DNA of 64,000 bases, from assembly GCA_947503035.1 (NCBI GenBank), contig CANNCD010000001.1, forward strand, positions 744,001 to 808,000, read 5' to 3'. The DNA comes from an uncultured Halocynthiibacter sp. GTDB lineage: Bacteria > Pseudomonadota > Alphaproteobacteria > Rhodobacterales > Rhodobacteraceae. The notes beneath the pieces are model-generated. The model saw only the letters and a program-made list of their open reading frames with translations. It did not search any database and had not been told where the DNA came from. A program made the position numbers and the translations under genes. Of this stretch, positions 1,475-6,226 are shown piece after piece (positions within the stretch are counted from its first letter, which is position 1; each line of letters opens with the position of its first letter).

Positions 1475-2029
1475 CTAGTTTTCAAAGCTAAACTCGGCGC
1501 TGGCGATGACTTTGCCGTCCATTGCCGAGGTCAACGTTTGCCAATCGACGGCGATGTCATCCTGTTGTGGCAGATCGGTCAGGTCATCGTTCAGGGCATA
1601 CACCGAAATGGTATATTCATGCGCCGCACCGGGCGGCGAACATGGGGGCGTATAGCCCGTTGTCCGCGCGTCTTTGTCGGCGCCTTCATCGCCGATGGAC
1701 ATGGGGTTGCCCCGTGCGATTTCGCGCGTATCGGCTGGGATATTCCACAGCAACCAATATTGGCTGGGGGCATCGCGCCCTTCGACCGTGCCGCGCGGAT
1801 AGTGGTGCATGATCACCGCAAAGCCGTCGGTGCCGTCGGGCACCTGTGACCACGCAAGCGGCGGCGACACACCATCGCCCCCATCGCGCGTGCATTTAAG
1901 GGCGGCGGGCAATGTGCCCCCGTCGGTGATTTCGGGGCTGGTCAGGGTAAAGCCATCCTGCGCCGCGCTGGCGGTTGCGAGCGTCGCGAAGATCAACGCG
2001 ATGGCCGTTTGGGGCGCGCGTCGGATCAT
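1475..2029 (-). CDS. YbhB/YbcL family PEBP-like protein, exported
   Basis: A 184-residue protein with an N-terminal signal peptide (hydrophobic core about residues 8-20, ending near SAAQD). The mature part has PEBP (Raf-kinase-inhibitor-like) hallmarks: the GGDGVSPPLAW stretch and the CSPPG..HEYTISVYAL motif that lines the ligand pocket. Bacterial members bind small anions or phosphorylated ligands and their roles are poorly known. The ATG at 2029 overlaps the TGA of the upstream YHYH gene in an ATGA tetramer, indicating translational coupling. A TTG two codons upstream is possible but less likely. A periplasmic partner of the YHYH protein is inferred. Confidence 0.85.
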   Translation of the reverse strand: MIRRAPQTAIALIFATLATASAAQDGFTLTSPEITDGGTLPAALKCTRDGGDGVSPPLAWSQVPDGTDGFAVIMHHYPRGTVEGRDAPSQYWLLWNIPADTREIARGNPMSIGDEGADKDARTTGYTPPCSPPGAAHEYTISVYALNDDLTDLPQQDDIAVDWQTLTSAMDGKVIASAEFSFEN

Positions 2030-2988
2030 CGGCAAAACTCTCCCGTCATAAGTGCGCCGTCATTGGTCACAGTTTGCGTCGTAAAGGCATAACACCCCTC
2101 CGCATCCGCCGGCGCGTAGCGTATGAAATATGCATCCCCATCGTATGTGTAATCCATGCTGCGCGTGCCATCGTCGTTTTGCGTGAACACAAGGTTGTCG
2201 ACCCCGCCGCGCGGTGGGCGACCAGGTTCGGCACCGCCGCCCGTCGCAGTCTCGAGCGGGCGCACACGTGGGAGACGGTCAAAGTCTGGCACCTCGCCCA
2301 TCAGGCATTGCACGATATAGGGCGCGTCTGGCGAGGTGTGGTAACGATAGCCAAAGGTGGCGTCGGCCTGCCCATTACAAACGTCCAAGGTGCCCGCGGC
2401 GATCTCGGATCCATCGGGGTTGGCATCGCCATAAATCGGGAACCCGTCAAAGGCCCAACCGATGATGGCTGCATCGCCCGCATTGGCCATTTGTTCAATC
2501 ATACAAACGGGGGTGGTGTGATAATGATAATCATCCCCCCGCCCCGCGTGACCACCGCAAACATCAAGCTGTTGGGTGAGGATCGTATCATGCTGGGTTT
2601 GGTGATGGGCAAGATCGGCTTCGCTCATCTCGCCCCCACCAGTATAGTCGTAGATCGGCACGCCATTCACCGCGACGCCAAGTGCCGCATCCCGCGTCAA
2701 GGGCTCTCCGGTCAGGGTCGGCGTCAAAATGACAGGTGCCGCGTATTCGGCGGGCACGGGCACCTGTTCGTTTGTGCCAACGATGCCGGTCATCATGTCG
2801 TGGTCGGGATAGGTATCCGAGGTCAGGATTGCGTGGCTGTCGGTACAGGTCACGCGCACCGCGTCATCAAACCCCGCATCCGCAACCGAGGCCGCAACCG
2901 CGTCGCAATGGTCATCATGCGCGACGGCAAATGTTGGGAAAGAAACCACCGTCAGGGCGGCGATGGCGATAGGTTTTGAAAACGTCAT
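2026..2988 (-). CDS. YHYH-domain secreted protein
   Basis: About 320 residues, with a signal peptide (SKPIAIAALTVVSFPTFAVA) followed by a His/Asp-rich mature region. It carries the diagnostic DDYHYHTTP motif at mid-protein, a GWAFDGFPIYG motif and a second YRYHTSPDAPYI motif, all typical of YHYH-domain proteins. The family is periplasmic or extracellular; the histidine clusters suggest metal binding, though no enzymatic role is established. Two in-frame ATGs lie six bases apart (2994 and 2988). GGAG sits seven bases before the second but only one base before the first, so 2988 is preferred. It is the first gene of a two-gene operon with the PEBP protein. Confidence 0.82.
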   Translation of the reverse strand: MTFSKPIAIAALTVVSFPTFAVAHDDHCDAVAASVADAGFDDAVRVTCTDSHAILTSDTYPDHDMMTGIVGTNEQVPVPAEYAAPVILTPTLTGEPLTRDAALGVAVNGVPIYDYTGGGEMSEADLAHHQTQHDTILTQQLDVCGGHAGRGDDYHYHTTPVCMIEQMANAGDAAIIGWAFDGFPIYGDANPDGSEIAAGTLDVCNGQADATFGYRYHTSPDAPYIVQCLMGEVPDFDRLPRVRPLETATGGGAEPGRPPRGGVDNLVFTQNDDGTRSMDYTYDGDAYFIRYAPADAEGCYAFTTQTVTNDGALMTGEFCR

Positions 2989-3274
2989 GGTCATACTCCG
3001 GTATGAATGGGTGTGCGGCGGCCAGACTTTGATATGAGCAGAACCGTAAACGAAAATTGGCTCCATACCACGTCCTGTCTTGGGCATTAAACGTGATACG
3101 TCGCCCCCGGCATTTTCCGTCGCACAAATCTGATTTTGCAGATTATTTTAAAAGAAGTCGCGTGCCGGAAATCCCTTTCTTCGCATCCGACAAACGACCG
3201 TCAAACCGCGCGCCCATTATGTTAAGAGGGATTGTTGCGTCTCAACGGCGTTGAGGCGCGTTTCACCGTGGGTC

Positions 3275-3838
3275 TTATTCCAACGGTATGGTGCTGCGCG
3301 TCGCCGCCGCAAGAATGTCGCGTTGTAGATCATTGTCTGAAACGGACCGCGCCAAAATCAGTGCTCCGATCATTTGCGCCATCACCTGAATTGCAGCGTC
3401 TCGGGGGGCGTCATTTGCACCAAGCACCTCTGACAGATCATCGATCTGCCGCGCCACGGCTTGGCCAAACACGTTTTGCAGGGCGGGACGATCCCGCGCG
3501 GCCTCGGGGGCAAGCGTGGCATAGGTGCACCCCTGCGCGACGGCGCTCAGATGTTGTTCGGACAGATACCACGACTTTAACGCCGCAACAGGATCCTCGG
3601 CACCTTTGACAGCATCAGACCACATTGCGAAGTTTTCATCCAACGCCAATGCGGTCGCCTCAAGCGCAAGCGCCTCCTTGTTTTCAAACTGCTTGTAAAA
3701 CCCACCTTGGGTCAGGCCCGCAGCCTTCATCAGGCCAGAGATACCGATGCCGTCAAAACCATGCGTGCGGAATTGTTCGCTTGCGGTGCGCACTACTCTT
3801 TTGCGGTTCTTATCTGCGGTTTCGCGGCTAACTCTCAT
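3275..3838 (-). CDS. TetR/AcrR family transcriptional repressor
   Basis: 187 residues. The N-terminal 50 residues form a TetR helix-turn-helix (RVVRTASEQF...GISGLMKAAG...GGFYKQFENKEAL). The C-terminal part resembles TetR_C subfamilies of the AcrR/NemR type (LSEQHL...GCTYATLAPEAARD). It is transcribed divergently from an alpha/beta hydrolase across a 190-base gap that holds three near-identical inverted repeats, which are the expected operators. It very likely represses the hydrolase and itself. The conserved Cys in the GCTY segment occurs in family members that sense electrophiles, so that is a possible inducer class (inference). Confidence 0.9.
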   Translation of the reverse strand: MRVSRETADKNRKRVVRTASEQFRTHGFDGIGISGLMKAAGLTQGGFYKQFENKEALALEATALALDENFAMWSDAVKGAEDPVAALKSWYLSEQHLSAVAQGCTYATLAPEAARDRPALQNVFGQAVARQIDDLSEVLGANDAPRDAAIQVMAQMIGALILARSVSDNDLQRDILAAATRSTIPLE

Positions 3839-3897
3839 GTCGTTTCCAATCTTTGACCCGTATTTGTTTTATCCGAATTTGGCGCGCAGGTCGATCC

Positions 3898-3988
3898 GTT
3901 AGATGCCTTTCAACATCTAATTATTGCAGCGTTAGATTTCGATCAACATTTAATATTGACTTCATTTAGATTTCGCACAACATCTAAG
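3898..3988. promoter_or_regulatory. Three tandem TetR-type operators
   Basis: Three 24-base copies of one inverted-repeat motif lie at 3898-3921, 3931-3954 and 3965-3988. The first is a perfect palindrome, TTAGATG-N8-CATCTAA. The others match at the half-sites (TTAGAT...ACATTTAA and TTAGAT...CATCTAA). Centre-to-centre spacings are 33 and 34 bases, close to three helical turns. A TTGACT at 3956-3961 between copies two and three could be the -35 of the hydrolase promoter, with the third copy lying over the -10 region. Binding by the divergent TetR protein is inferred from position and symmetry. Confidence 0.8.
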
Positions 3989-4029
3989 AGAGGCCGACAT
4001 CATTCTCAAATCGAAAAAGGAACAACACC

Positions 4030-4881
4030 ATGGCATTTGACACAGACACGCCAAACACCACGAATTTTATTGAGGTCAACGGAACCCGAATTGCATGGCG
4101 CAGCACCGGAACGGGCCAACCTTTGTTGATGCTGAACCGGTTTCGCGCCTCTATGGATGATTGGGACCCAAGCTTGATCGACACCTTGGCCCAGACCCAC
4201 CGCGTCATTACCTTTGACAGCGCAGGTGTCGCCGCAAGCGAAGGAGAGGTTCCCGAAACCTTAGAGGGCGCGGCCGATGTCGCGATGGGGCTCGCAGAGG
4301 CGCTTGGATTAGAGAGCCCAAACATCCTTGGCTGGTCCATGGGCGGAATGACCGCGCAAATCCTTGCGGCGAAATACGGCGACAGGATCAACGGCGTCAT
4401 CCTTGCCGGTACAACGCCAAGCTTTGCGATTAAAGGAACCGTTCCGGTCGAACAGGACTGGTTGGGGATTGCCACCAAGTCGCAAAACACGCCCGAAGAT
4501 ATGATGTACCTATTTTATGCTGCGTCGCAATCAAGCAGAGCCGCAGGGCTGGCATCTCTTGCGCGGATCGGTGGCGGAAATGCCAAAAACGGCGCCGCGT
4601 CAAAGACGACCATGCAAACCATCGCCGCCCAAGGGGCCGCCACGCGCAAATTTTTCATGGGTGAGGACGGCGCCTTTAAAACGCTGGGGCACATCACCGT
4701 CCCTGTTTTGGTGGCCAATGGCGACCAAGACAGCGCGTTCTCGGTTGAAAATTCGGTTGCTCTTGCGCGGGAAATCCCAAATGCGCAACTTGCCATCTAT
4801 CCGAATGCGGGCCACGCGTTTCATTTCCAATATGCACGCCAATTTGCGCAGGATGTAACCACGTTTCTGTCGCAAATCTGA
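4030..4881 (+). CDS. Alpha/beta hydrolase
   Basis: 283 residues with the alpha/beta hydrolase fold throughout. The nucleophile elbow is GWSMGG with Ser103. The acid is in VLVANGDQDSAF (about residue 233) and the catalytic His in NAGHAFHFQY near the C-terminus. The usual HG oxyanion motif is replaced by LNRFRAS, so the oxyanion hole is not the textbook form. Length fits esterase/haloperoxidase-type members. Translation starts at an ATG after AAAAGGAACA. It is the only gene downstream of the triple TetR operators, so an inducible detoxification or degradation role is inferred; the substrate cannot be predicted. Confidence 0.88.
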   Translation: MAFDTDTPNTTNFIEVNGTRIAWRSTGTGQPLLMLNRFRASMDDWDPSLIDTLAQTHRVITFDSAGVAASEGEVPETLEGAADVAMGLAEALGLESPNILGWSMGGMTAQILAAKYGDRINGVILAGTTPSFAIKGTVPVEQDWLGIATKSQNTPEDMMYLFYAASQSSRAAGLASLARIGGGNAKNGAASKTTMQTIAAQGAATRKFFMGEDGAFKTLGHITVPVLVANGDQDSAFSVENSVALAREIPNAQLAIYPNAGHAFHFQYARQFAQDVTTFLSQI

Positions 4882-5778: not shown

Positions 5779-6226
5779 ATGCAACTCAAAAACGTTTAAG
5801 ACAAACCTAACAAGTGCCTTTTACGCGGCCAAACATCAAATTCCAGCGATGAAACGGGCCGGATCTGGTTCGATCATCTTCACCTCAAGCTTTGTGGGCT
5901 ATACGGCGGCGTTTCCGGGAATGGGGGCCTATGCCGCAAGCAAATCAGGTTTGATCGGATTGGCGCAGGTCTTGGCGACGGAACATGGGGCGGATGGCAT
6001 TCGGGCCAACACATTGTTGCCCAGCGGCACAAAAACCGCCATGGCCGGTGATCTTGAGGCGAACCCAGATCAAAAGGCATTCTACGATTCCATCCACGCC
6101 TTGAAACGCATGGCCGACCCAGAAGAAATCGCCAAAGCGGCTCTGTTCCTGGCCTCGGATAATTCGAGCTTTGTCACAGGCTGTGCAATGGTTGTGGACG
6201 GCGGGAACTCCATCAACAAGGTCTAG
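5779..6226 (+). pseudogene. Short-chain dehydrogenase (SDR) pseudogene with internal deletion
   Basis: An ATG at 5779 after GGAGA opens MQLKNV and then hits TAA, which matches the first residues of many SDRs. In another frame, from about 5795, the sequence continues as TNLTSAFYAAKHQIPAM, the alpha-4 region of an SDR, followed by the catalytic Ser/Tyr/Lys region (YAASKSG) and an intact C-terminus ending at 6226 (GCAMVVDGG). The whole Rossmann NAD-binding half, roughly 100 residues including the TGxxxGIG motif, is missing. The junction lies near 5793-5797. An open frame from 5849 remains, but without the cofactor site it cannot be a working dehydrogenase. Original substrate is unknown. Confidence 0.82.

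Follow-up and report, generated by a model that had tools for sequence, protein, structure and literature searches.

Which protein would recognize three inverted repeats that stand in register between a divergent tetR-family gene and an alpha/beta hydrolase gene, and what fixes the distance between tandem repressor sites of this kind? We addressed both questions for a locus of an uncultured Halocynthiibacter sp. contained in a window (the whole 64,000-nucleotide stretch of DNA that was analysed), for which a sequence-only reading had proposed cooperative repression by phased TetR dimers. The locus belongs to one TetR group in which the spacing is constant within a clade despite saturated flanks and a first target gene that varies, and which provides an evolution-replicated test case for what fixes the spacing between such sites.

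Repeats and flanking genes

The three repeats have the form TTAGAT-N10-ATCTAA and lie in register within the tetR/hydrolase intergenic region (Table 1), with starts 33 and 34 bp apart, gaps of 11 and 12 bp, and half-site steps across the array of 16/17/16/18/16 bp. Register and start spacing can be seen directly in the letters of the window, as the sequence-only reading had reported. Inverted repeats are likewise present, but the length of 24 bases assigned to them was slightly generous, because by eye there is no pairing at base pair 24 and each repeat comprises 22 bp. The array had also been placed in front of one hydrolase; the hydrolase gene does adjoin it, but the divergent tetR promoter was omitted from that description. 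The repeats lie in the 191-bp region (3839-4029) between two divergent genes and therefore face both. By eye, a ribosome-site-like AAGGAA stands at 4017-4022, ahead of the hydrolase gene.

Table 1. Coordinates of the operators, gaps and genes within the window
Feature	Position	Strand	Remarks
PBP/YbhB-like ORF	1475-2035	-	Beside YHYH-domain gene; named by eye
YHYH-domain protein	2026-3087	-	PF14240
tetR-family repressor gene (187 aa)	3275..3838	-	ORF and Pfam TetR_N, E 1.1e-9; presumed autoregulator
Operator 1, tetR-proximal	3899..3920	no strand	TTAGAT-N10-ATCTAA, 0 mismatches
Gap between operators 1 and 2, 11 bp	3921..3931	no strand	Weak or absent -35-like element, tetR strand
Operator 2, middle	3932..3953	no strand	1 mismatch
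Gap between operators 2 and 3, 12 bp	3954..3965	+	Holds hydrolase-strand -35-like TTGACT, 3956-3961
Operator 3, hydrolase-proximal	3966..3987	no strand	0 mismatches; would cover spacer and -10 of hydrolase promoter
Alpha/beta hydrolase gene (283 aa)	4030..4881	+	ORF and Pfam Abhydrolase_1, E 3.5e-24

When the 191-bp region was shuffled 20,000 times with its dinucleotide composition preserved, 24 of the shuffles contained one site with at most one mismatch and none contained two or three. A motif-free measure of similarity among the three copies gave 53/66 in the observed sequence, whereas the highest value among 300 shuffles was 39. Across the whole 3.09-Mb genome the only sites with at most one mismatch are the three repeats of the window, so that at this threshold no additional copy points to a regulon beyond the array; with up to two mismatches allowed, 34 sites were found versus 25 for a reversed control pattern, which is near background. 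An isolated, well-formed palindrome two mismatches away from the operator, ATAGATGTATGTAAACATCTAT, is present in this genome at C6:31617-31638 (L127 1018-1039), flanked by two ORFs that by eye resemble a cell-wall hydrolase gene and folB.

The protein encoded by the tetR gene scores 38.3 bits against the N-terminal TetR_N helix-turn-helix profile (PF00440, cut-off 24). Its AF2 model (pLDDT 92.7) displays an all-helical, two-domain TetR fold, and the top PDB matches in a fold search are all TetR-family regulators, with TMq values of 0.79-0.81 among the first five. Similarity to the LmrA/YxaF (QdoR) subfamily is weak: the LmrA/YxaF-like C-terminal domain TetR_C_13_2 reached 20.5 bits in this protein, below the Pfam cut-off of 27. 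A Gly-Cys pair at residues 103-104 is invariant in all 33 aligned TetRs and is a possible ligand or redox site. NemR has a cysteine switch, and a similar switch at the invariant C104 was considered as a candidate from the alignment. For the hydrolase, the NCBIfam hits shown all fall far under their cut-offs (e.g. PcaD, 82 of 255.85 bits).

Conservation of the site among TetR relatives

To assign the repeats to a protein, relatives of the window TetR were gathered by protein similarity alone (80 named loci) and sites with at most three of 12 mismatches were counted within 300 bp upstream of each tetR gene. At least one site was present in 80 of the 81 loci (the window and the 80 relatives) and two or more in 64 of the 81; of 1,620 shuffled upstream regions, 107 had one site and one had two. 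The order was represented by 390 further genomes, of which 23 matched with an E value no higher than 1e-30. These 23 genomes contributed 27 loci; three duplicated loci already collected and were left out, and the other 24 were added. When 105 loci were scanned with a matrix built from the sites, neighbouring copies were found in 81, a single copy in 11 and none in 13, the last group comprising mostly the remotest TetR proteins. By name and coordinates, three genomes had been seen twice (L006/L009, L007/L012 and L008/L022), and the tree includes two sets of identical proteins (L036/L097 and L016/L017).

The counts in relatives and in shuffles, together with the matrix result, place the motif with this TetR group. 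Because relatives chosen by protein similarity carry the same motif ahead of their own genes, the earlier assignment is borne out: at the level of sequence, the three repeats are well supported as predicted operators of the TetR encoded beside them. Tandem pairs were also sought without reference to any protein, in 385 genomes of the class; the outcome was mostly uninformative, with four single hits besides the pairs of the window, and the reversed control also hit.

Spacing between operators

The commonest spacings between neighbouring copies are 29 bp, the only spacing at 45 loci, and 33 bp; spacings of 26, 27, 30, 31, 32 and 34 bp are rarer. Every locus with a 32-34 bp spacing, including the window, falls in one 18-row clade (SH-aLRT 96) in which 17 of 18 rows have such a pair; a single site is found at L010, within this clade. 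The spacing is mostly 29 bp in a Rhizobiales-rich clade, and 26 bp is used elsewhere. The tree is a quick maximum-likelihood estimate made without bootstrap and with a long-branch warning (L016, L019, L035 and L012 among the rows concerned), and we are unsure of the deeper branching order within the 33-bp clade.

Comparison of 13 loci of the 33-bp clade (78 pairs; the window and L017 were left out) gave mean identities of 72 and 66% for the operators and 44% for the gap, whereas the 30-bp flanks are 31 and 30% identical, near chance. Since the operators have stayed alike beside flanks that are saturated, the spacing has been kept while the surrounding DNA was randomised.

Arrays of three copies were found at three loci: that of the window (34/33), L009 of Phaeobacter sp. 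B1627 (the same as L006; 33/33) and L091 of another genus (33/33). These three loci form one clade (SH-aLRT 99) that spans three genera. Operator 1 might be a spare copy of little function that arose by a 33-bp tandem duplication, as operators 1 and 2 share 80% identity across 25 bp and two copies suffice in most relatives. However, three copies at 33-bp steps persist in the three genera, with half-sites in operator 1 that are perfect or near-perfect, and we consider this origin quite improbable. Four operators were observed in three Bradyrhizobium loci (L065, L074 and L080; 300 bp upstream of position 3001), arranged as two 29-30 bp pairs with one pair near each divergent gene.

A spacing of about three helical turns, with dimers aligned on one face, had been proposed for this array and is not supported. 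With the phase computed at 10.5 bp per turn, a 33-bp step departs from one face by 51 degrees and a 34-bp step by 86 degrees; for operators 1 and 3 of the window, 67 bp apart, the departure is 137 degrees. In related loci, 29 bp corresponds to -86 degrees and 26 bp to 171 degrees. Given the range of spacings and these angles, helical phasing was rejected as the conserved quantity.

The related proposal, that phased dimers touch on one face and bind cooperatively for tight, switch-like repression, with the spacing set by dimer-dimer contact, could explain why 32-34 bp is held in 17 of 18 clade loci despite saturated flanks, and why operators 1 and 2 are exactly 33 bp apart in all three three-copy loci, including the window, where the gap between them is without a good -35 element. 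Against it stand the angles given above and the 29, 31, 27 and 26 bp used in other clades, and the operators of Tn10, 11 bp apart, are reported to give 'no indication of cooperativity' (PMC3037858). The cooperative one-face model is not supported as stated, and we regard it, including a spacing set by contact between dimers, as unlikely. The locus warns against taking 'about three turns' as evidence of cooperativity.

Promoter elements within the arrays

In the 33-bp clade, TTGAC is present on the gene strand of the target-side gap in 15 of 15 pairs counted, versus 1.4% of shuffled gaps; the count covers 15 loci of the 18-row clade, with L035 (34 bp), L038 (32 bp) and L010 (single site) left out, and the gaps of L035 and L038 also contain TTGAC. 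Seven two-copy loci (L011, L014, L018, L019, L021, L022 and L027) carry in addition a tetR-strand promoter resembling TTGTCA-16-TATAAT at 10-11 of 12 positions, with its -35 in the same gap as TTGAC and its -10 inside an operator.

The elements of the 29-bp clade are placed differently, with TTGC in the upstream operator (43/49) and, 17 bp on, the TAT of the TATAGA that starts the downstream operator (41/49). This pattern is not just a consequence of the palindrome, because the mirror images of TTGC and TAT are much rarer (18/49 and 14/49). The sequence TTGCG(A/T)-17-TATAGA is found on the gene strand in the gene-side pair of the four-site Bradyrhizobium loci, and by sequence these loci have one operator pair per predicted promoter; three of the six multi-site loci inspected (L043, L063 and L067) are without a clean TTGC-17-TATAGA pair on the gene side.

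Within the window, the best gene-strand candidate is TTGACT-16-CAACAT, matching 8 of 12 positions, and a scan of the window for sigma-70 consensus promoters found none. Nothing convincing was found for a tetR-strand promoter in the gap between operators 1 and 2, where L009 and L091 have ATGACA on the tetR strand. The weakness of the window promoters by consensus is the main soft spot of an account based on promoter occlusion.

Across the group, promoter geometry as read from these elements seems to account for the spacing better than helical phase does, and the constant appears to be the position of the promoter hexamers. The best account, and in our judgement a probable one, is that TetR occludes both divergent promoters through operators interleaved with them, with binding and repression themselves inferred. 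TetR dimers on operators 2 and 3 would stand on either side of the -35-like TTGACT, and the -10 zone of the hydrolase promoter would lie under operator 3, so that RNA polymerase would be kept off. Operators 1 and 2 would lie over or just upstream of the putative divergent tetR promoter and provide autoregulation, and thus the middle operator would serve both promoters, which allows the three-site array to be read as two operator pairs with the middle site in common. The 33-bp register would be kept because operators and promoter hexamers interleave, rather than by dimers needing one face. The repressor may be released by a small ligand, for which an acyl-CoA or an ester from the thiolase/thioesterase/hydrolase pathway is a candidate.

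Comparison with known TetR systems

The Tn10 tetR/tetA system contains two operators 11 bp apart that overlap the promoters (PMC9210681), and like the window it has divergent repressor and target genes with operators between them. As regards an overlap of operators with the promoters of both genes, the window has the -35-like TTGACT within the hydrolase-side gap and promoters that are weak; the overlap is clear in the seven two-copy relatives. Unlike Tn10, with two operators of another sequence and tetracycline efflux as the target, the window has three operators and a hydrolase.

Precedent by analogy for three operators of one TetR-family protein is given by MbdR of Azoarcus sp. CIB, for which PMC4424350 describes three predicted operators at its own P3R promoter, several retarded bands and an acyl-CoA inducer. 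MbdR also recognizes an N10 palindrome (ATAC-N10-GTAT), which differs from the motif of the window, and is associated with an aromatic pathway. QdoR/LmrA of Bacillus subtilis, with two operators at the qdoI promoter and one at qdoR (PMC8481877), is comparable through the weak C-terminal similarity noted above, but its targets are other than those of the window. Some Bradyrhizobium TetRs of the 29-bp clade stand divergent to a gene that belongs to a 43-member cluster and by eye encodes an RND efflux adaptor. A possible counterpart is FrrA of Bradyrhizobium, a TetR that responds to flavonoids and lies next to freCAB, the genes of an RND pump (PMC4070704).

The operators of the window also fit the half-site geometry TAGA(C/T)-N10-(G/A)TCTA of QacR, whose IR1 site reads TAGAC-N10-GTCTA within CTTATAGACCGATCGATCGGTCTATAAG (PMC9210681) and is bound by a pair of dimers (PMC3022030). 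If two dimers sat on each 22-bp site in the manner of QacR at IR1, the array could hold up to six, and the site matrix, with its conserved outer block (positions 1-6) and weaker inner block (positions 7-10), is compatible with this arrangement. However, QacR differs in binding a single 28-bp site and in controlling Gram-positive efflux; a QacR structure is absent among the 50 fold matches listed, a conserved 22-bp palindrome equally fits one dimer, and the available text on MbdR, with its own N10 palindrome, names no dimer pair (PMC4424350). A pair of dimers per site is accordingly improbable in our estimation. An extension of this idea, which we hold to be just as doubtful, is that dimer pairs nucleate an ordered assembly, as many as six dimers long, that extends across both promoters, each clade having fixed its own register (33, 29 or 26 bp) by weaving -35/-10 hexamers into the repeat, such that spacing would be a heritable trait outliving replacement of the target gene.

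Given the precedents of Tn10, QacR, MbdR and QdoR, we view the array, by analogy, as a variation on the established divergent TetR layout with autoregulation, from which it differs in having a third copy and a register of unusual clarity. Literature searches on three-operator TetRs, two-operator divergent promoters, FrrA and TTAGAT/ATCTAA gave no account of the array among the papers listed; its absence from print is not thereby shown, because the search by letters returned mostly irrelevant papers.

Target genes and potential use

First target genes across the group comprise thiolase, thioesterase and hydrolase, with an efflux adaptor in the 29-bp clade. In most loci of the 33-bp clade, the divergent genes encode a thiolase and a thioesterase of PaaI type (family names by eye). 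In Phaeobacter sp. B1627 (L125 2982-5570) the thioesterase and thiolase are followed by a hydrolase 78-79% identical to that of the window, and in Yoonia (L035 795-2899) a thiolase precedes a hydrolase of 68% identity. In the window the hydrolase stands alone behind the operators. It looks, from sequence comparison, like the remainder of a longer operon, because the genome of the window gave no match to the thioesterase (in a search run without a positive control) and its best thiolase is 54% identical. These target genes and the apparent loss of operon partners lead us to guess at a ligand from acyl-CoA or ester chemistry. With two to four operators and one or two promoters, the arrays of this group represent compact parts for reporter use.

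Elsewhere in the window, a short-chain dehydrogenase remnant was observed at 5780-6226, in which the match of ORF 5849-6226 to adh_short_C2 does not start until profile position 121. Upstream of this ORF, an ATG at about 5780 meets a stop after six codons (by eye), and the whole looks like a truncated gene.
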